Below, piece by piece: positions 44,303 to 54,232 of a DNA stretch of 64,000 nucleotides. The notes under the pieces are model-generated. The model was not told the DNA's origin and made no database searches. It saw only the letters and a program-made list of their open reading frames with translations. The DNA is from Christiangramia flava JLT2011 (GTDB lineage: Bacteria > Bacteroidota > Bacteroidia > Flavobacteriales > Flavobacteriaceae): NCBI RefSeq assembly GCF_001951155.1, contig NZ_CP016359.1:947001-1011000 (forward strand), read 5' to 3'. Both the position numbers and the translations under genes were made by a program. How positions within the stretch are numbered: position 1 is the first letter of the stretch; each line of letters starts with the position of its first letter.

Positions 44303-45550
44303 CTAAAATTTCCGCTCCGGTTGGAATGGCTGAAGGTCCAGAGAAGGTTTTTTGTTATCGATAATCTCGGAAATCAGTTTTCCGGTCGCCGGGCCCAAAC
44401 TCCACCCCATCATAGCATGACCTGTACCAATACTGAGATTTTTCCATTTGGCTGAACGACCAATATAAGGTAGCCCATCTGGGGAGCAGGGTCGCAGACC
44501 GGTGCTCACACTTTCCTTTTCCGTAGAGGAGATTTTTAAACCGGAAAAATAATTTTCTGCTGCATCTGCAATCGCATTCACCCTAACCGGATTTACGATA
44601 TTATTGATCCCACCCAGTTCCATGGTTCCTGCAAACCTCGTAAATCCATGCATAGGAGTAACGGCCACCTTGGCTTCGACCAGGATCGAAGGTAATTTTA
44701 TACCAGTATCCCGGTACACATTAAAACTGTAGCCCTTGCCCGCCTCCACTAAAATCTTGAGACCTAACTGGCGGGCCAGTACTGGAGACCAAGAACCGGC
44801 AGCCAGAATGACTTCATCTGCCTGCCATTTTTTATCCCCGCTTTTCACTTCACTGATCCGGTCACCCGAAAAATTAAAATTAGTCACTTCCGTACCTGTA
44901 TGAATTTTCACACCGCTTCGGAGGAGATAATTCTTCAGTTGCTTCATAAATTCATTGGGCGTCATGTGTGCATCGCAATCGTAATACCACGCGCCCCGCA
45001 CGTTGTAATGAGCATCAGGAAACTGATTTTGAAGATTTTCGCTGGTGAGATGCATCACTTTCATACCCTCTCTTTCGGCCATTTCCGCAATACTGGCTTC
45101 ATCCTGCTCCCCCTTGCTCGTCTGGTAGCACATAAGCAGGCCGTTGCGTTCGTAAGCAAAAGGAAATTCCTGGGCTTTCTTCATATCTTCATATAATTCC
45201 CGACTCAGGAGATTGATATCGCGGATCACCGGAACCGACTTCTGCACCTTCGGAAAATTGGCAGATTTCTTAAAACTCCAGGCCCACTTTAAAAACTGTC
45301 CGTTCAGCCTTGGTTTCACGTAAAACGGGCTCCGGCTATTCAGCATCCACTTCAGTCCTTTGGCAATAATCCCAGGCGAACTCAAAGGAATAATGTGGCT
45401 CGGGGTGATATAACCGGCATTTACGTAAGAGGCACCGCCGTCCATATTCCCCTTTTCCAACACCTGCACATGGTGCCCCTCCTTATGAAGGTAATAGGCC
45501 GTACAAAGACCAATAATTCCGCCGCCAATGATCACACAGTTTTTTGACAT
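44303..45550 (-). CDS. FAD-dependent amino-acid oxidoreductase (DadA/DAO family)
   Basis: This 415-residue flavoprotein begins with the dinucleotide motif VIIGGGIIGLCTAYYLHKEG and VLEKG at the end of beta2. The C-terminal FAD contact is SIGTGHAMMGWSLGPATGKL. The sequence resembles D-amino-acid dehydrogenases and hydroxyproline-type dehydrogenases. It would oxidise an amine or imino acid at the membrane or in the cytoplasm. It has no signal peptide. It is divergent from a NUDIX-type regulator, and a 14-bp palindrome (45581-45594) lies 30 nt upstream. The true substrate cannot be assigned from sequence alone. Confidence 0.85.
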   Translation of the reverse strand: MSKNCVIIGGGIIGLCTAYYLHKEGHHVQVLEKGNMDGGASYVNAGYITPSHIIPLSSPGIIAKGLKWMLNSRSPFYVKPRLNGQFLKWAWSFKKSANFPKVQKSVPVIRDINLLSRELYEDMKKAQEFPFAYERNGLLMCYQTSKGEQDEASIAEMAEREGMKVMHLTSENLQNQFPDAHYNVRGAWYYDCDAHMTPNEFMKQLKNYLLRSGVKIHTGTEVTNFNFSGDRISEVKSGDKKWQADEVILAAGSWSPVLARQLGLKILVEAGKGYSFNVYRDTGIKLPSILVEAKVAVTPMHGFTRFAGTMELGGINNIVNPVRVNAIADAAENYFSGLKISSTEKESVSTGLRPCSPDGLPYIGRSAKWKNLSIGTGHAMMGWSLGPATGKLISEIIDNKKPSLDLQPFQPERKF

Positions 45551-46739: not shown

Positions 46740-47744
46740 ATGATGAAAACCTTTTCTTTCGAAATAGAGGGAAATTCGTGCATTTTTGATTCATTATCTT
46801 CCGAGCGAGATATTTATAAAGAAGAGGAAAATTTTAAGATCTTTAATTTACCACAAGACCTTGGCACTGGTGTAATTGAATTTTATAAGCTAAATGAAGA
46901 ATTAAATTATTATAGGTGGACTGGAAAAATAAATCAATCAATCAAAATCACCTTTAATTTCCCCAAAGGTTGGCCCTTTAACTTATTTCAATCTTTTGTA
47001 GGTCAATTATACTTTGTACCTGAGCAGGAAATAAAAGTTTTATACCCATATCAGCAGTTAATTTTCAATCCTTTACAGAATTCCAAGATTTCTTTCATCC
47101 CACCAATAAATTGTAATTTCCAATACAGCTATATTCAAATTTTTAAGAAAAAAAAATCAAGACATCATACTCCATTCCCTCTTTATTCGCAACTAGTCAA
47201 AATTCCGCATTCAGACAAATTAGTGATTGAGGAAAGTTGCAATCAAAGTTTAATTAGAATTGGACAAGAACTAGCCAAAATAAATCGCTTCAATTCAGGA
47301 AGACAGATATATGTCCAGGCCAAAGTTCTGGAGATTATCTCCATGGCACAAAGTAGTTTTAATAGAAAAAGTGACCTACAGCTACAGGGAATTTCTTCCT
47401 ATGAATATAATAAGTTACAAGAAGCTAAAAATTACATTGAAGCCAATTTTCATACAATAAAAAGAATCCAGGAAATTGCATATCAAATCAATTTACCTAT
47501 TAATTCCTTACAACACCTATTTAAAATTTGCGAAGGACAGACGATTAATGAGTATTTGAAAAATTATAGGCTAAAATATGCTTGGAATCATATCAATGAG
47601 GGAAAAACTACAATTTCTGACATTGTATATCGAATAGGATTAACTAGTAGAAGCTATTTTTCTAAAATATTTAAAAACAAATATGGCTATTATCCTAGTA
47701 AGTTATTGGAGATGAACTCAATTTCTAATAAAACTAAGGATTAA
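46740..47744 (+). CDS. AraC-family transcriptional regulator
   Basis: In this 334-residue protein the last 100 residues form the double helix-turn-helix of AraC/XylS proteins (AKNYIEANFHTIKRIQEIAY, INEYLKNYRLKYAWNHI, TISDIVYRIGLTSRSYFSKI, FKNKYGYYPSKLL). The first 220 residues have no recognisable ligand domain. Codons are much A/T-richer than in the core genes, suggesting horizontal acquisition. It lies 74 nt upstream of the acyl-CoA dehydrogenase gene on the same strand and is a likely local activator. The ATG at 46740 is followed directly by a second ATG. Confidence 0.88.
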   Translation: MMKTFSFEIEGNSCIFDSLSSERDIYKEEENFKIFNLPQDLGTGVIEFYKLNEELNYYRWTGKINQSIKITFNFPKGWPFNLFQSFVGQLYFVPEQEIKVLYPYQQLIFNPLQNSKISFIPPINCNFQYSYIQIFKKKKSRHHTPFPLYSQLVKIPHSDKLVIEESCNQSLIRIGQELAKINRFNSGRQIYVQAKVLEIISMAQSSFNRKSDLQLQGISSYEYNKLQEAKNYIEANFHTIKRIQEIAYQINLPINSLQHLFKICEGQTINEYLKNYRLKYAWNHINEGKTTISDIVYRIGLTSRSYFSKIFKNKYGYYPSKLLEMNSISNKTKD

Positions 47745-47818
47745 ATTTCCGACATTTTTAGTATGCTCTTAACTATTATGGCGACCGCTTTCCTCTATTT
47801 TTATTAAAAAAATTGCCT

Positions 47819-48874
47819 ATGAAACATACTGCAGAATTAGAAAGAATTGTAAGTAGGTTTAATGGGCAAAAAAACTTCATTGATAAACTTACAACTTTTC
47901 TAAGCAGCAACAATTACTTAGTTACAGCTATCCCCCCTAATGATGATTTATACTCCTGGTCTCAGAATCTTTTCAACCTATTATTTCATTTCGGTAAAAC
48001 AGACTTGTCAGTAGCTAGAGTATACGAAGGACATGTTAATGCCATCAAGCTGATTAAGGATTTTGGGACTGAATCTCAAAGAGCATTTTATTTCAATGAA
48101 GTTTCAAAGGGAAAAATTTTTGGCGTGTGGAATACAGATGCTCCCAAAAATCCACTGAAAGCCTCATTTACTGAGACAAAAATGGAATTAAATGGTTCCA
48201 AAATATTCTGTTCTGGAGGATATAGGATTGATTATGCTATCGTCACCTATGGCTCGAGTAGCAATAGACAAATGGCGGTAGTACCAATAAATTCTAGGAC
48301 TTCTGTTCAGGAAAATTATGCATTCTGGCAGGCAATGGGAATGGAAAACTCCAGAAGCACGGAGCTTACTTTTACAAATTATCACATAGAAAAGAATGTA
48401 CAACTAGGAAACCCTAATGATTATGAACTACAACCATGGTTTTCTGGAGGCTCCATCCGTTTTTGTGCTGCACAAATTGGAGGTGCCACCTCTTTGTATG
48501 AAGAAACAATAGAACATTTAAGAAGAAAAGGGAGGCATGAAAATTCTCAACAACTGGATCGGATTTCACAGATGAGAGTAGAAATCGAGACCGGAAAACT
48601 TTGGATTAATAAAGCTAAAGAAGTCTACGGCAATGCTAACCGTTATAGCTCTCCCGAAATAGTTGACTTTAGTAATATGATGAGAAATGTCACTACTACT
48701 ATTTGCGAAAAAATATTGCTGCTTTCCACTAAATCCATCGGTCTTCCAGCATACATGAATGGACATCCTGTAGAACAAAAACTGAGAGATTTAATGGTTT
48801 ATGTGAGACAGCCTAATCCGGATATGGTTTCTCATAATATTGGTCTTTATGGCGTTAACCAAACAATGGAATGA
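47819..48874 (+). CDS. Acyl-CoA dehydrogenase-like flavoprotein
   Basis: This 351-residue protein starts at ATG 47819 (a TTG two codons upstream also exists). It shows the acyl-CoA dehydrogenase layout without the full N-terminal helical domain: a middle beta-domain (GKIFGVWNTDAPKNPLKA, LNGSKIFCSGGYRIDYAIVT) and a C-terminal helical domain ending HPVEQKLRDLMVYVRQPNPD. It is shorter than typical members (about 380 residues). Its last codons overlap the PIG-L/methyltransferase start by 4 nt, so it is not a stand-alone beta-oxidation gene. It may oxidise an acyl or amino group on the product of this cluster. AT-rich codon use. Confidence 0.85.
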   Translation: MKHTAELERIVSRFNGQKNFIDKLTTFLSSNNYLVTAIPPNDDLYSWSQNLFNLLFHFGKTDLSVARVYEGHVNAIKLIKDFGTESQRAFYFNEVSKGKIFGVWNTDAPKNPLKASFTETKMELNGSKIFCSGGYRIDYAIVTYGSSSNRQMAVVPINSRTSVQENYAFWQAMGMENSRSTELTFTNYHIEKNVQLGNPNDYELQPWFSGGSIRFCAAQIGGATSLYEETIEHLRRKGRHENSQQLDRISQMRVEIETGKLWINKAKEVYGNANRYSSPEIVDFSNMMRNVTTTICEKILLLSTKSIGLPAYMNGHPVEQKLRDLMVYVRQPNPDMVSHNIGLYGVNQTME

Positions 48875-50181
48875 AATATACAGCAGAAGAATTAAAAAAC
48901 GCACCAGACTTTAACAAACAAAAAATTGCTGAAGATCTGGGAAATTGTGTGATCTTTTCTCCTCATCCTGATGACGAAAGTTTGGGTTGCGGGGGCCTTA
49001 TTAAATCATTAACCAATTCTCATTCTGATGTCTATGTTATATTCGTTACCAATGGGGAAAAAAGTCATACTAATTCAAGGATTTATCCACCAGATATTTT
49101 AGGAATGCTGCGACAGCAAGAAGCAATGGACGCATGTAAAATACTAGGAGTGAAGAATTCTAATGTCTATTTTTTAAATTGTGGAGACGGTAATATTAAA
49201 AATTCATACAATCAGTTTAAAAGAAACGCTAAACTCTTTAACAAGATCTTTTCAAGTAAGAATATTAAAACGGTTCTTATGCCCTGGAGAAGAGATCATC
49301 ATATCGATCATATTGCCACCAATGAATTAGTTAGAAAAATTCTTCCAGAGCATATTCAAACAATTGAATACCCGATATGGTTATGGAATAAAGGTATAGA
49401 TTCCGATTGGCCTGAAACGGATGAAATTTTGCCATACAAATTAAATATAGAAGACGTTTTTTCTTATAAAAAACGTGCAATCTTTCAACATAGAAGTCAG
49501 ACAACTAATTTGATTAAAGACGACCATAATGGTTTTCGACTAACTTCTAAATTGTTGAAACCTTTTATGGGAAATTACGAATATTATTTCTTCCCTAAAT
49601 TGGAGAAACCTAATGTTCCAGAAGAATATTTCGATAAGATCTATGATCAGACGGACGACCCTTGGAATTTTGAGACAAGTACGTATGAAAAAGATAAATA
49701 TGAACAAACTATCAAATCATTGCCCAATAACTATTACAATAATGCATTGGAAATTGGTTGTTCAAACGGCGTTCTAACAAAATTGATAAGCACTAAATGT
49801 AAAAAATTGCTCGCTTTCGATCATAACCAAAAGGTACTGAATGCTGCAAAATCGAGATGCAAAGAATTAAAAAATATAAATTTTACTATAGGAGATCTAA
49901 AATCTTATTTTCCCGATGGACAATATGACCTGATAATATTTTCCGAAGTAGGTTATTATTTTAATAAAGAAACGCTTCTAAAAATTCTTTCTAAGATTGA
50001 TAGAAGTTTAGTGATAAAAGGTCATTTTGTGATGGTTCATTGGACACCATATGTGGCAAGTTATTCACTCACTGGACGAGAGGTTCACATGATATTTGAT
50101 GAAAATTTCAGCACAAATTACAGGTTGCGATCTATGTATCGCTCTGAATTGTATGAAATCGTAGTTTGGGAAAAACGATAA
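48871..50181 (+). CDS. PIG-L family deacetylase fused to class I SAM methyltransferase
   Basis: This 436-residue fusion has an N-terminal PIG-L/LmbE domain, residues about 20-235, with zinc motifs FSPHPDDESLGCGG and HHIDHIATNEL. These enzymes usually deacetylate N-acetylglucosamine-type sugars. The C-terminal domain, about residues 250-436, is a NodS-like methyltransferase (NALEIGCSNGVLTKLI, AFDHNQKVLNAA, YDLIIFSEVGYYF). NodS N-methylates deacetylated chitin-type amino sugars, so deacetylation followed by N-methylation of one amino sugar is a coherent guess. The start overlaps the acyl-CoA dehydrogenase stop (ATGA). Its last 64 nt overlap the convergent glycosyltransferase. Confidence 0.92.
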   Translation: MKYTAEELKNAPDFNKQKIAEDLGNCVIFSPHPDDESLGCGGLIKSLTNSHSDVYVIFVTNGEKSHTNSRIYPPDILGMLRQQEAMDACKILGVKNSNVYFLNCGDGNIKNSYNQFKRNAKLFNKIFSSKNIKTVLMPWRRDHHIDHIATNELVRKILPEHIQTIEYPIWLWNKGIDSDWPETDEILPYKLNIEDVFSYKKRAIFQHRSQTTNLIKDDHNGFRLTSKLLKPFMGNYEYYFFPKLEKPNVPEEYFDKIYDQTDDPWNFETSTYEKDKYEQTIKSLPNNYYNNALEIGCSNGVLTKLISTKCKKLLAFDHNQKVLNAAKSRCKELKNINFTIGDLKSYFPDGQYDLIIFSEVGYYFNKETLLKILSKIDRSLVIKGHFVMVHWTPYVASYSLTGREVHMIFDENFSTNYRLRSMYRSELYEIVVWEKR

Positions 50182-51233
50182 TAGTAATCAAACTGGCCGA
50201 TTGCTTTCTCTAATTGAATCTTTGGATATTTGTAATTCCAATCTTTATTTGATTGTAAATAGCAATCAATTTGTAGATTGATTCCTTGGTAAGTTTTATA
50301 GGTGCTAAACAAATCCTTTAATTTCGCTGAACTTATACATAGTTTGGAGCTTAATGCTTCTAAATCGTAGTAATCCCGATGCTGATATCTGTCCTTTATT
50401 TCACTCATAGCCTCAAACTTCGAAATTAGCCCCTGGACTCCCTCTACTTTCTTACTGATGCAATTTTCGACATTCCTTAATTCATCCCCAAAACCACCTC
50501 GTACTCTAGAATTAATTCTAGCGGAAGTGAAAGAAATGGGGGAATGAGAATGTTTTATACGCAAACCCGATTCTAAAACACGATTATATAATGCAATATC
50601 TTCCAAACATGCTAACGGAGGTATTCCCCCTATCTTTTTGTAAACCTTTCCTCTAATAGCCATATTAGGTCCAGAATTATGCGAATGATCAGGCCCTCCC
50701 TCAATATCAATGGCATATAATTCTCTCTGGAGTTTCGCTACATATTCTAAATATGTACGGGTAAGCTTAATGTACTTAAGCTGTAGGGTAGATAGCTTAT
50801 CTGTTTGTGGAATGATTATCCCACAAATTAAATCAAAATTAGTTTTCAATAATTGATTATAAGCCGCCAACCAACTGGAATGAAAAACCGTATCAGCATC
50901 AGTCATTATAATCCATCCACTCCCTTTGATTTTATTACTCGCATAATCCATTAAAATTTTTCTGGCTATTCCCACATTATTGATAAAATCTTCATTACTA
51001 ATAAGGATTTCGATGGGAAAGGTCGGATTTGTACTTTTAAATTGATTGCAGAGATTGACAGTGCTATCAGAGCATCCATTACAAAACACTATTACCAGAA
51101 ATTCCTTGTCTATAGGCTCTTGTGTTTTAATTGATTCCAGAGTTTTTAAAATAGTTTTCTCTTCATTCCTTGCGGGAATAGTAATAACGATTTCTTTCAA
51201 ATTATAAGGCTCGAGTTGTTCTATTTTTTCCAT
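50118..51233 (-). CDS. Family 2 glycosyltransferase of the PIG-L cluster
   Basis: This 371-residue GT-A protein starts at ATG 51233 (a TTG lies one codon upstream). It has VITIPARNEEKTILKTLESI near residue 16, SGWIIMTDADTVFHSSWL with the DxD metal site near 116, GGPDHSHNSGPNMAIRGKVY and ACLEDIALYNRVLESG (ED acid/base region) near 208. The C-terminal 130 residues are variable helices. It is convergent with the PIG-L/methyltransferase gene and overlaps it by 64 nt. It probably supplies the sugar that the PIG-L and methyltransferase domains modify. Confidence 0.9.
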   Translation of the reverse strand: MEKIEQLEPYNLKEIVITIPARNEEKTILKTLESIKTQEPIDKEFLVIVFCNGCSDSTVNLCNQFKSTNPTFPIEILISNEDFINNVGIARKILMDYASNKIKGSGWIIMTDADTVFHSSWLAAYNQLLKTNFDLICGIIIPQTDKLSTLQLKYIKLTRTYLEYVAKLQRELYAIDIEGGPDHSHNSGPNMAIRGKVYKKIGGIPPLACLEDIALYNRVLESGLRIKHSHSPISFTSARINSRVRGGFGDELRNVENCISKKVEGVQGLISKFEAMSEIKDRYQHRDYYDLEALSSKLCISSAKLKDLFSTYKTYQGINLQIDCYLQSNKDWNYKYPKIQLEKAIGQFDYYYRFSQTTISYNSERYIDRNL

Positions 51234-51236
51234 CAA

Positions 51237-51453: not shown

Positions 51454-51823
51454 TTAGTAAGCTTGCTTTTTTTTACCAATAGTATGAGGTTCATAAAACC
51501 CGTCAAATAAAATTAGGCATCTACCCTCCTGTATATAATTCTTATAAGATTTAGTCTCCCAAAAATCTTCCCCCCTAGCATTCAAATGTATAAGAATTTT
51601 TAGCTAAGAATTCACTTGGATTCTTCTTACCCCAAAATGGAACTAATCCCCACGTAGCAGAAATTTCAAACTCAGGATTTTCCTGTGCAATAATTGGAAT
51701 AGTTGGATTGGTGAAAGCATTAATATGATGACTTAATTTAATAGGTTTCACCCCTTTATTCCCCTTTGAGCCATATCCTTTTAACTTTCTTTCTTGCGTT
51801 GTGAGCGTTCCTTTATAACACAA
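51454..51823 (-). pseudogene. Frameshifted SRAP (SOS response-associated peptidase, YedK/HMCES family) remnant
   Basis: Frame 1 from 51823 reads (M)CYKGTLTTQERK, then SHHINAFTNPTIPIIAQ and ATWGLVPFWGKKNPSEFLAK, clear SRAP motifs including the position-2 Cys. It then hits TAG at 51575. Shifting by one base near 51583 restores TLNARGEDFW and GRCLILFDGFYEPH, the next SRAP motifs, until TAA at 51454. One extra T (ACATTTGAAT versus the expected ACATTGAAT) explains the shift. The initiator is TTG and the C-terminal third (the HN..RMP region) is missing. SRAP proteins shield abasic sites in single-stranded DNA. Confidence 0.8.
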
Positions 51824-52602: not shown

Positions 52603-53283
52603 TTACTTCTTATCAATATTTACTAAGTAAGGCTTTAGAATATCGGCCCATTTTAGATAACCATTTTCATTCAGATGCAACCCTTCATCCGTATAATCGG
52701 GATCTAAGCGTCCCTGAGCATCCAGAAATTCGGGGTAAATATTAATTAGTGTAACACTAGTCTGCCTTGCCAGTTTCTTCAGCTCTTTATTAATATGGAT
52801 AATATGCTCATCCTTATGGTAATGCCGTTCGTAGACCTCAAACAAAGCATTTACCGGTAGAATTGTTTCAATATAGATCTTTGTTTCGGGCGATTCTTTC
52901 TGAATACGATGGATAATTTTTCTATAATTTTGAAGAATGATTTCATCGGGGAAGTTGCGAGATATATCATTGATACCGATTAAAAGAAATACTTTAGCTG
53001 GATGACCTTCGGTGACTTCATCGAGTCTTTCTAGTATTCCAAAAGTCGTATCACCAGAAATACCTCTATTTCTAGCCTTTGGAATTTGGAGCAATTCATT
53101 CCAATGTGCTCTTGCAGTGATACTATTTCCCAAAAAGATAATATCTGAAGTATCATTAGGATAAGTTCTGAACTGCCTCACCTGAACGGGATACGTCTTT
53201 GGTCGGTAGGTCGTATCAATTTCATTTTGAGCCATCCCGACAGTCACCGTCAAAATTACCACTAAAAAAACATATCTCTTCAT
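52603..53283 (-). CDS. Secreted SGNH/GDSL-type esterase
   Basis: This 226-residue protein starts at ATG 53283, where a signal peptide begins (MKRYVFLVVILTVTVGMA). The block I Ser lies in IIFLGNSITARAHW (GNSIT), the block III GxND in LIGINDISRNF, and the catalytic Asp/His in DEGLHLNENGYLKW. The SGNH fold removes acyl or acetyl esters from lipids or glycans. It is last in the susCD operon, 22 nt after the HAD gene. With its neighbours, a lysophospholipase-type deacylation feeding the phosphodiesterase is plausible but inferred. Confidence 0.9.
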   Translation of the reverse strand: MKRYVFLVVILTVTVGMAQNEIDTTYRPKTYPVQVRQFRTYPNDTSDIIFLGNSITARAHWNELLQIPKARNRGISGDTTFGILERLDEVTEGHPAKVFLLIGINDISRNFPDEIILQNYRKIIHRIQKESPETKIYIETILPVNALFEVYERHYHKDEHIIHINKELKKLARQTSVTLINIYPEFLDAQGRLDPDYTDEGLHLNENGYLKWADILKPYLVNIDKK

Positions 53284-53305
53284 CATTAATAAATTCATTT
53301 TAATC

Positions 53306-54232
53306 CTAATTATTTTCATGTTCTGCATTCTTTCGGATGTTCAGATCTTTTGAAATATATGAATGATCTCCTTCAGGAAGATCCTCACAGGTGACGATTA
53401 AAGCTTTTTGAGATTCCCAGTATTCCTTTAAGGTTTGACCATTTAAACTCGAATCTTCCTCATGTTGCAATTTTTTCGAATCATCTGGATTAATGATCAT
53501 TTTTAAACCGACAGATTCATTCATCATTTCCCAATCACCTCGACTATTCCCGGCAACGAATAAGGGCTTTGCTTTAATGAAAGTCTGGATAGCATCGGCT
53601 TTCCCCGCATCTTGCGGAACCGGCTGAACCAAGGTTCTGGTTACCTTCCCATCATGGATGACAGATTTCACTCCGATGATCCGATTCAATGGAATTCCAG
53701 TATTTTCACTTACAAATTGTTGATATAAGACTTCTGGTGACGCTGTGACCACCCAGATCTCAAAACCATAATCTTCCAGGTTTGCCAGCAATTGTTTCAT
53801 CTGCGGATAGAATTTGTTTTGGTATTTCTCCTGAAACATCTCTTCTCCTATTTGTTGAACTTCTGTTGCGCTTAGGCCAGATAGAAAACTGATCCTTTTT
53901 TGCACATAGTCCATTCCCACATTATTGCCATTCAGCAAAGAATCAATAACGGCCATTTTTGCAATCGAAAGACTATCCTTTTTATCGGAAAAATGAGTTC
54001 CTGCATAATTATAAAGTGCTTCATCTGCCAGATAGTATGGTGACTGACCTAATAAAGTTCCGTCACAATCAAACACGGCCACTTTCCTTTCTTTAATGAT
54101 TCTACTCCCTTCCAGGAAAGTTTCCAGCTTATTATTGATGTCCTCATTCCACCCAGAAATTTTATGAAATTCCTGAGCAAAACTTGAGAAAGCAATAACG
54201 CAGAATATAAAAACGAGCATTTTACTTCGCAT
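53306..54232 (-). CDS. Secreted HAD-family phosphatase
   Basis: This 308-residue protein has a signal peptide (MRSKMLVFIFCVIAFSSFA), HAD motif I VAVFDCDGTLLGQ near residue 50, motif II WVVTASPEVLYQQF near 157 and a motif III/IV region VAGNSRGDWEMM near 238. The helical cap between 80 and 140 is of the C1 type, like phosphoserine and phosphorylcholine phosphatases. A periplasmic head-group phosphatase (for example on phosphocholine) would fit the operon but is inferred. The start overlaps the GDPD stop by 11 nt. Confidence 0.88.
   Translation of the reverse strand: MRSKMLVFIFCVIAFSSFAQEFHKISGWNEDINNKLETFLEGSRIIKERKVAVFDCDGTLLGQSPYYLADEALYNYAGTHFSDKKDSLSIAKMAVIDSLLNGNNVGMDYVQKRISFLSGLSATEVQQIGEEMFQEKYQNKFYPQMKQLLANLEDYGFEIWVVTASPEVLYQQFVSENTGIPLNRIIGVKSVIHDGKVTRTLVQPVPQDAGKADAIQTFIKAKPLFVAGNSRGDWEMMNESVGLKMIINPDDSKKLQHEEDSSLNGQTLKEYWESQKALIVTCEDLPEGDHSYISKDLNIRKNAEHENN

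Follow-up and report, generated by a model that had tools for sequence, protein, structure and literature searches.

What might be made together by an enzyme that resembles an acyl-CoA dehydrogenase, a zinc deacetylase fused to a methyltransferase, and a glycosyltransferase? The question is raised by an AT-rich block in a stretch of 64,000 nucleotides from Christiangramia flava JLT2011 (contig NZ_CP016359.1, positions 947,001 to 1,011,000), referred to below as the window. The block encodes an AraC-family regulator, a flavoprotein with the acyl-CoA dehydrogenase fold, a fusion of a PIG-L deacetylase with a NodS-like S-adenosylmethionine (SAM) methyltransferase, and a family 2 glycosyltransferase (GT2). 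It belongs to a biosynthetic cassette of four enzymes (flavoprotein, deacetylase, methyltransferase and GT2) that is conserved although patchy in its distribution, with carriers in no fewer than five phyla: Bacteroidota, Cyanobacteriota, Pseudomonadota, Deinococcota and Verrucomicrobiota. The reading that we prefer, and to which we give somewhat less than an even chance, is that the cassette makes a soluble, N-methylated and oxidized amino-sugar metabolite that is linked to stress in many of its carriers.

The cassette emerges as a unit from its recurrence. A single flavoprotein pattern, run against 84,980 species represented by one genome each, uncovered at least 534 stretches encoding the flavoprotein family, a lower bound, and the best 80 of these 534 confirmed stretches were analysed with their flanks. 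Together with seven plasmid loci chosen by the PIG-L/methyltransferase pair and the window itself, these 80 loci, chosen by the flavoprotein gene, make up a set of 88 in which partner genes were located by six-frame searches. PIG-L and methyltransferase lie within 5 kb of the flavoprotein gene in 81 of the 88 loci, and all three partners are found in 65. Two loci contain the methyltransferase and GT2 only, and five harbour the flavoprotein gene alone (L041, L053, L076, L086 and L089, three of which are from Methylobacterium). Genome samples drawn irrespective of the cassette agree. Among 395 Bacteroidota genomes the flavoprotein (E <= 1e-40) occurs in eight, and the PIG-L/methyltransferase pair in the same eight; three further genomes display one partial domain match each. 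Within the genus, flavoprotein and pair are held by the same seven of 24 genomes, and neither is present in the other 17. When 149 genomes were drawn from the family, the pair was confined to the window's own genome, and the flavoprotein score dropped from 430 bits to 93 for the next match. All four enzyme genes or domains are present in each of 14 Bacteroidota regions (13 fetched and the window); in 13 of these, GT2 is encoded on the other strand.

Pseudomonadota and Cyanobacteriota yield an analogous picture. The sample comprised 398 Pseudomonadota genomes, 38 of them matching, and 386 Cyanobacteriota genomes, 13 of them matching; 38 sampled regions with a mean length of 17 kb were compared with 40 control regions, placed by hand on longer contigs in 27 of the same 38 genomes. 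PIG-L is encoded in 33 sampled regions and in no control, the methyltransferase in 37 and none, and GT2 in 31 and one, respectively. The fetched regions represent 31 of the 38 matching Pseudomonadota genomes; six weak matches (91–104 bits) and G559 (already present as L016) were left out, as were, among Cyanobacteriota, G1173 (a strong match), G1045 and G1085 (weak) and G560 (already L021), with G1125 represented by L254 only, as its strong match apparently lies on the plasmid of L008. In the loci L253 and L254 the flavoprotein homologue is more remote (∼200 bits) and neither PIG-L nor methyltransferase is encoded; these two loci are not part of the 38 regions. If they are counted, the methyltransferase is found in 37 of 40 regions and PIG-L in 33 of 40. 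The first-pass annotation of this DNA had mentioned similar gene sets in distant bacteria, had suggested a neighbourhood search with the three enzymes, and had regarded rare linkage elsewhere as a sign of chance assembly: the search now reveals linkage that is conserved across phyla. The distant flavoprotein relative, which is also encoded in L172, probably belongs to a different system, judging from its neighbours: in L172 (Gloeothece) the adjoining genes encode another methyltransferase, an SDR protein, an LLM oxidoreductase and a flavin reductase.

Gene order is shuffled among the loci, while the set itself persists. Over 153 loci, equivalent to 145 distinct groups at 95% identity (L256 is a near-copy of the L084 region and L156 of the L020 region), the succession flavoprotein, PIG-L, methyltransferase and convergent glycosyltransferase is the most frequent (60 loci), followed by arrangements with the glycosyltransferase first (34) or last on the same strand (18); 12 loci have other orders or are devoid of PIG-L or methyltransferase. 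Set members are also joined to one another: PIG-L and methyltransferase share one open reading frame (ORF) in 18 of the 153 loci, and in P0138 the flavoprotein is fused to the NodS-like methyltransferase. The four proteins are co-inherited, with distance matrices that correlate at r 0.75–0.89 across 109 loci and at 0.74–0.88 across 103 loci after removal of near-copies, against a permutation maximum of 0.19. In a flavoprotein tree of 81 members the phyla cluster, and none of the three large phyla forms a single group, each requiring two to four label changes. The tree is no proof of transfer, which we only infer, and the exact place of the window flavoprotein is unsure because its branch is very long. 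One of the Pseudomonadota label changes is due to a suspect contig of a metagenome-assembled genome (L024, Tatlockia), whose flavoprotein hardly differs from the one encoded by the cyanobacterium Chlorogloea (L040) and which is probably misbinned on this sequence evidence.

Additional genes and domains accompany individual copies. In two Deinococcus loci (L004 and L165) the flavoprotein is extended by a fused N-terminal domain of 425 aa; relatives of this domain adjoin the cassette in L161 and L067, where they have no Pfam match, and in L011 a relative ∼9 kb away matches glycosyl hydrolase family 1 (7e-7). The Deinococcus cassette is interrupted by a TnpB gene in L004 and by a helicase gene in L165. 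A second PIG-L gene is located just past the cassette in L224, L229, L232 and L233.

What the individual enzymes may do is indicated by their families. The PIG-L zinc deacetylase domain spans approximately residues 1–250 of the window fusion and the NodS-like SAM methyltransferase domain residues 260–436; Pfam bears out these assignments and that of GT2, all of which had been made from the sequence at the outset. The window proteins display the zinc-binding motifs HPDD and HxDH, the SAM motif EIGCSNG and, in GT2, TDAD. Broken zinc and SAM motifs in close relatives had been named as another sign of chance assembly; in most relatives they are intact, with H.DH in 137 of 137 loci, HPDD-type motifs in 135 of 137, the SAM motif in 124 of 143 by the pattern used, and TD[AG]D in 106 of 120 GT2 loci. 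The closest solved relatives are diacetylchitobiose deacetylases for the PIG-L domain and, for the methyltransferase domain, NodS and 4isc, which we take to be a Pseudomonas protein of unknown role; GT2 has weak solved relatives only. The curated NodS model scores 78 bits against a cut-off of 300, denoting a related domain only, and the BshB1 model 50.7 bits against 182.5. Both scores are far below cut-off, and membership of the Nod factor and bacillithiol pathways was accordingly rejected.

The flavoprotein is the member for which the initial name, acyl-CoA dehydrogenase, probably needs revision. When a profile of the family is compared with the Protein Data Bank, the top five entries are DszC (three entries, 9e-30), a thermophilic homologue (1.2e-24) and the methanesulfinate monooxygenase MsuC (1.3e-24). 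These are followed by 5z8t and 5gj7 (6–7e-21), named acyl-CoA dehydrogenase type 2 domain protein, and then by the acyl-CoA dehydrogenase 4u83 (7.8e-21). The catalytic glutamate of acyl-CoA dehydrogenases, located near the C-terminus in a GEGT segment, is present in 20 of 20 ordinary enzymes from related genomes and is not conserved in the family (3 of 32 members), although this column sits in a gapped part of the alignment. Segments that the family members have in common are YEGHVNA, FCSG and YLRQPAPD. Since the family profile ranks DszC and MsuC first and the glutamate is mostly missing, the protein is quite probably a flavin monooxygenase of the DszC/MsuC type. In the plasmid locus L010 (Acinetobacter soli) the flavoprotein gene consists of two pieces in different frames, without annotation.

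The alternative that the flavoprotein does work as a dehydrogenase or reductase, with an acyl thioester as its substrate from which the sugar would receive an acyl group, appears improbable to us, in spite of several results that suit it. The Pfam model Acyl-CoA_dh_1 (PF00441) matches the window protein just over its cut-off (25.1 bits against 22.4; the middle domain reaches 22.2 against 33.3), and the databases annotate the family by that name. A search with the single window sequence places two acyl-CoA dehydrogenases (7e-6 and 1.5e-5) slightly ahead of DszC (5.5e-5), so that the preference for DszC and MsuC over dehydrogenases, evident with the family profile, is not visible there. Among the NCBIfam models acryloyl-CoA reductase scores highest (47 bits), with SfnB and DszC next and all far below cut-off. 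Against the monooxygenase reading, hydroxyphenylacetate hydroxylase, itself a flavin monooxygenase, is ranked below many dehydrogenases in the profile search (1.3e-9), and no flavin reductase gene accompanies the cassette consistently in those plasmid loci that are annotated. A true acyl-CoA dehydrogenase is nevertheless disfavoured by the family profile, which places DszC, the thermophilic homologue and MsuC above all entries named dehydrogenase, and by the rarity of the glutamate; moreover, genes for an acyltransferase or an acyl carrier do not regularly flank the cassette in the annotated plasmid loci.

Taken in sequence, the four families suggest a pathway. GT2 enzymes add a sugar, PIG-L enzymes strip the N-acetyl group from GlcNAc-type glycosides, NodS N-methylates deacetylated glucosamine, and enzymes of the DszC fold insert oxygen with the aid of reduced flavin, in some cases on the nitrogen of an amino sugar. 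In the cassette, GT2 would attach an N-acetyl-hexosamine, with UDP-GlcNAc as the probable donor, to a soluble acceptor; the PIG-L domain would then remove the acetyl group and the NodS-like domain would N-methylate the freed amine. Finally, the DszC-like monooxygenase would oxidize the methylamino sugar, as a first guess by N-oxygenation. This route would end in a soluble amino-sugar metabolite, which many carriers would make when under general stress. The chain of sugar addition, deacetylation, N-methylation and oxidation put forward by the first-pass annotation fits the enzyme families in its order, and its oxidizing enzyme is the part that changes; we infer the chemistry, including acceptor and donor, step order and site of oxidation, from these family assignments, and any protective role is putative.

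The link with stress stems from the neighbourhood. In 11 of 18 annotated plasmid loci (a nineteenth carries no annotation and is outside this count) stress-type genes are situated near the cassette: catalase, manganese catalase, trehalose synthesis, Ku, LigD, Dps, DUF892, PA2169-type, BrkB and DUF421/YetF genes. Fifteen markers made from these plasmid neighbourhoods, and therefore picked after the neighbourhoods had been viewed, were then tested on the genome sample: at least one marker is present in 17 of the 38 sampled regions and in one of the 40 controls (Fisher p = 5.6e-6), with catalase in nine and none, respectively. Removal of L256, equivalent to L084 whose catalase had previously been viewed, leaves 16 of 37 regions (p = 1.1e-5). 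An EcfG-like promoter pattern within 450 bp upstream, GGAAC-N15-18-GTT, of the kind that serves the general stress response of Alphaproteobacteria and the best-scoring of three forms tried, precedes eight of 35 alphaproteobacterial copies as against nine of 321 other genes of the same loci (p = 5e-5). The strictest form precedes three of the 35, and in other phyla GGAAC-N15-18-GTT is found upstream of two of 19 copies (p = 0.06). The enrichment of stress genes, and of EcfG-like promoters in a minority of alphaproteobacterial copies, is seen in carriers other than the group to which the window belongs. The form of the pattern was guided by the promoter table of an EcfG regulon paper, which in its accessible part includes catalases, Ku, trehalose genes and a number of glycosyltransferases in the regulon, and whose main text, to the same extent, mentions neither acyl-CoA, nor deacetylase, nor LmbE (PMC6599016).

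A number of observations weigh against the metabolite that we favour and its stress setting. None of the 15 stress markers is present in the window, and a marker is found in only 14 of 80 named loci and two of 13 Bacteroidota regions; likewise, 27 of the 35 alphaproteobacterial copies are without the promoter motif. GT2 is the least constant member, the other three occurring without it in 20 of the 153 loci, so that the core is composed of deacetylase, methyltransferase and flavoprotein; the flavoprotein gene stands alone in nine loci. The NodS and BshB1 scores imply that the substrates are not readable from orthology. Moreover, in seven Nostocales loci a HAD-like domain is fused to the methyltransferase (two were checked by Pfam), hinting at a phosphorylated intermediate that has no place in the proposed scheme.

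Two further explanations concern the destination of the product and the origin of the linkage. The enzymes might decorate a polymer or lipid-linked glycan, such as a capsule, lipopolysaccharide or cell-wall sugar, rather than produce a free metabolite. Two sphingomonads and one Paracoccus accommodate four glycosyltransferase genes in one run with the cassette, among them, in two of these three loci, a GT4-type enzyme by annotation, and relatives of the extra transferases are found in about ten loci. These transferases are, however, limited to a minority of loci, and the annotation of the plasmid loci shows neither a flippase nor a polymerase gene as a regular companion of the cassette. The four window proteins give no sign of a membrane segment, because a Kyte–Doolittle scan over 19 residues reveals no stretch above 1.6 in any of them. 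Glycan decoration is rather unlikely in our judgement. Alternatively, the genes could travel together merely because they derive from a small number of islands, inherited or transferred, with no common pathway. The patchiness within the genus and the small number of label changes in each large phylum are compatible with such a history, but order and orientation vary among lineages while the set persists, fusions join its members, and the six tested genes flanking the cassette in the window are missing from the remaining 13 Bacteroidota regions (two of these stop ∼340 bp upstream). Descent from islands as the sole cause is very improbable. A soluble amino-sugar metabolite remains the reading that we prefer.

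Comparison with characterized systems places the cassette between several of them. In the tailoring of rhizobial Nod factors, NodC, NodB and NodS represent a GT2 step, de-N-acetylation and then N-methylation of glucosamine; NodB belongs to a family other than PIG-L. The cassette would share this sequence of activities and has a methyltransferase domain related to NodS, but it has a PIG-L deacetylase, an extra flavin enzyme, no acyltransferase, a GT2 without indicated membrane segment and a NodS score far below cut-off. DszC and methanesulfinate monooxygenase are the best profile matches of the flavoprotein, have a common FCSG-type segment and likewise do not conserve the glutamate, whereas the cassette enzyme is distinguished by YEGHVNA and YLRQPAPD segments, by sugar-enzyme partners in most loci and by the lack of a constant reductase neighbour in annotated loci. 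The nitrososynthases and N-oxygenases of antibiotic clusters use amino sugars as substrates, in the form of nucleotide sugars; those of known structure (3mxl, DnmZ 4zxv, and 4kcf and 3m9v, presumably both KijD3) belong to the same fold family, yet match the family profile more weakly (6e-15 to 4e-13) than DszC and several dehydrogenases. The bacillithiol PIG-L deacetylases and diacetylchitobiose deacetylase share the zinc motifs, the latter being the nearest solved relatives, but in the cassette PIG-L is fused to a methyltransferase, the partner glycosyltransferase is of family 2, and the BshB1 model fits poorly.

The component families are all known, and their combination and stress setting appear undescribed in the literature searched, in which no paper describing the cassette or its product was found and which left bioRxiv preprints and most subscription papers beyond reach. 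Several candidates were pursued and discarded. A candidate Acinetobacter locus, A1S_1379 to 1383, led to other genes in the accessible portions of its sources, and for a Pseudomonas syringae trehalose-locus candidate the methods passage concerns other genes (PMC8719888). A Rickettsia aminoglycoside cluster includes PIG-L and a methyltransferase, with no acyl-CoA dehydrogenase mentioned in the accessible part of the paper (PMC8770908), and a Streptomyces synteny paper does not, in its accessible part, mention PIG-L (PMC13118837).

The layout of the block in the window, as recorded in the table below, agrees with the gene calls and coordinates of the first-pass annotation, including the ATGA coupling and the convergent GT2.

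Features of the block and of its surroundings (window coordinates).
Feature	Position	Strand	Basis
AraC-family regulator, C-terminal HTH_18	46740..47744	+	ORF list, Pfam HTH_18 8.6e-13
Acyl-CoA-dehydrogenase-fold protein, 351 aa, probable DszC/MsuC-type flavin-dependent monooxygenase	47819..48874	+	ORF, Pfam, family profile
PIG-L/NodS-like methyltransferase fusion, 436 aa	48871..50181	+	Pfam PIG-L 2.4e-27, NodS 1.8e-17
ATGA stop/start overlap, flavoprotein gene to fusion gene	48871..48874	+	sequence
Family 2 glycosyltransferase (GT2), convergent	50118..51233	-	Pfam Glycos_transf_2 5.8e-14
D-amino-acid-dehydrogenase-like oxidase	44303..45550	-	
Nudix regulator with NrtR/AraR-type winged helix	45712..46401	+	
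Short ORF, possible remnant	51575..51823	-	sub-threshold match to first third of SRAP profile
HAD-type phosphatase and GDSL lipase genes	52603..54232	-	

The flavoprotein gene starts at ATG 47819, with an in-frame TTG at 47813 also present, and lies 74 bp from the AraC gene; GT2 starts at ATG 51233 (alternative TTG at 51236) and overlaps 64 bp of the 3' end of the fusion gene on the opposite strand. The block is indeed AT-rich: its GC content is 33.2%, against 41.2% for the window, whose lowest 4.5-kb stretch has 32.6%. Kinship with phage DNA was rejected, as no match was obtained at blastn level. The fusion occurs in one full-length copy in the genome, which consists of a single contig of 4.0 Mb; named relatives of the fusion (47–50% identity) come from Christiangramia (Gramella), Salegentibacter and Autumnicola. 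The AraC protein, whose N-terminal ∼240 aa have no significant Pfam match, had been regarded as the cluster's own regulator. Its gene has no relative in the 13 further Bacteroidota regions, although two of them stop ∼340 bp upstream, too early to reveal one. On this basis the gene is to be counted as local to the source strain and outside the conserved set, and it was rejected as a conserved partner.

As for the surroundings, the short ORF next to GT2 may be a remnant. The phosphatase and lipase genes overlap by 23 bp, both encode a hydrophobic N-terminal stretch and form a probable exported pair without relation to the cassette; the phosphatase gene is found in two of the 24 genus genomes, its own included. 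The Nudix regulator gene adjoins that of the oxidase.

A bolder version of the proposal, which we regard as doubtful, is that the product constitutes a widespread, undescribed stress metabolite, namely an amino-sugar glycoside that is N-methylated and, as a hydroxylamine or nitrone, N-oxygenated, and that would serve as a redox-active or water-replacing protectant in, for example, Deinococcus, Hymenobacter and terrestrial cyanobacteria, all of which are stress-tolerant. Whatever its product, the flavoprotein is a hint that the name acyl-CoA dehydrogenase has been wrongly given to a group of proteins, and a cassette this common for which we found no described product represents a gap in our picture of bacterial metabolism.

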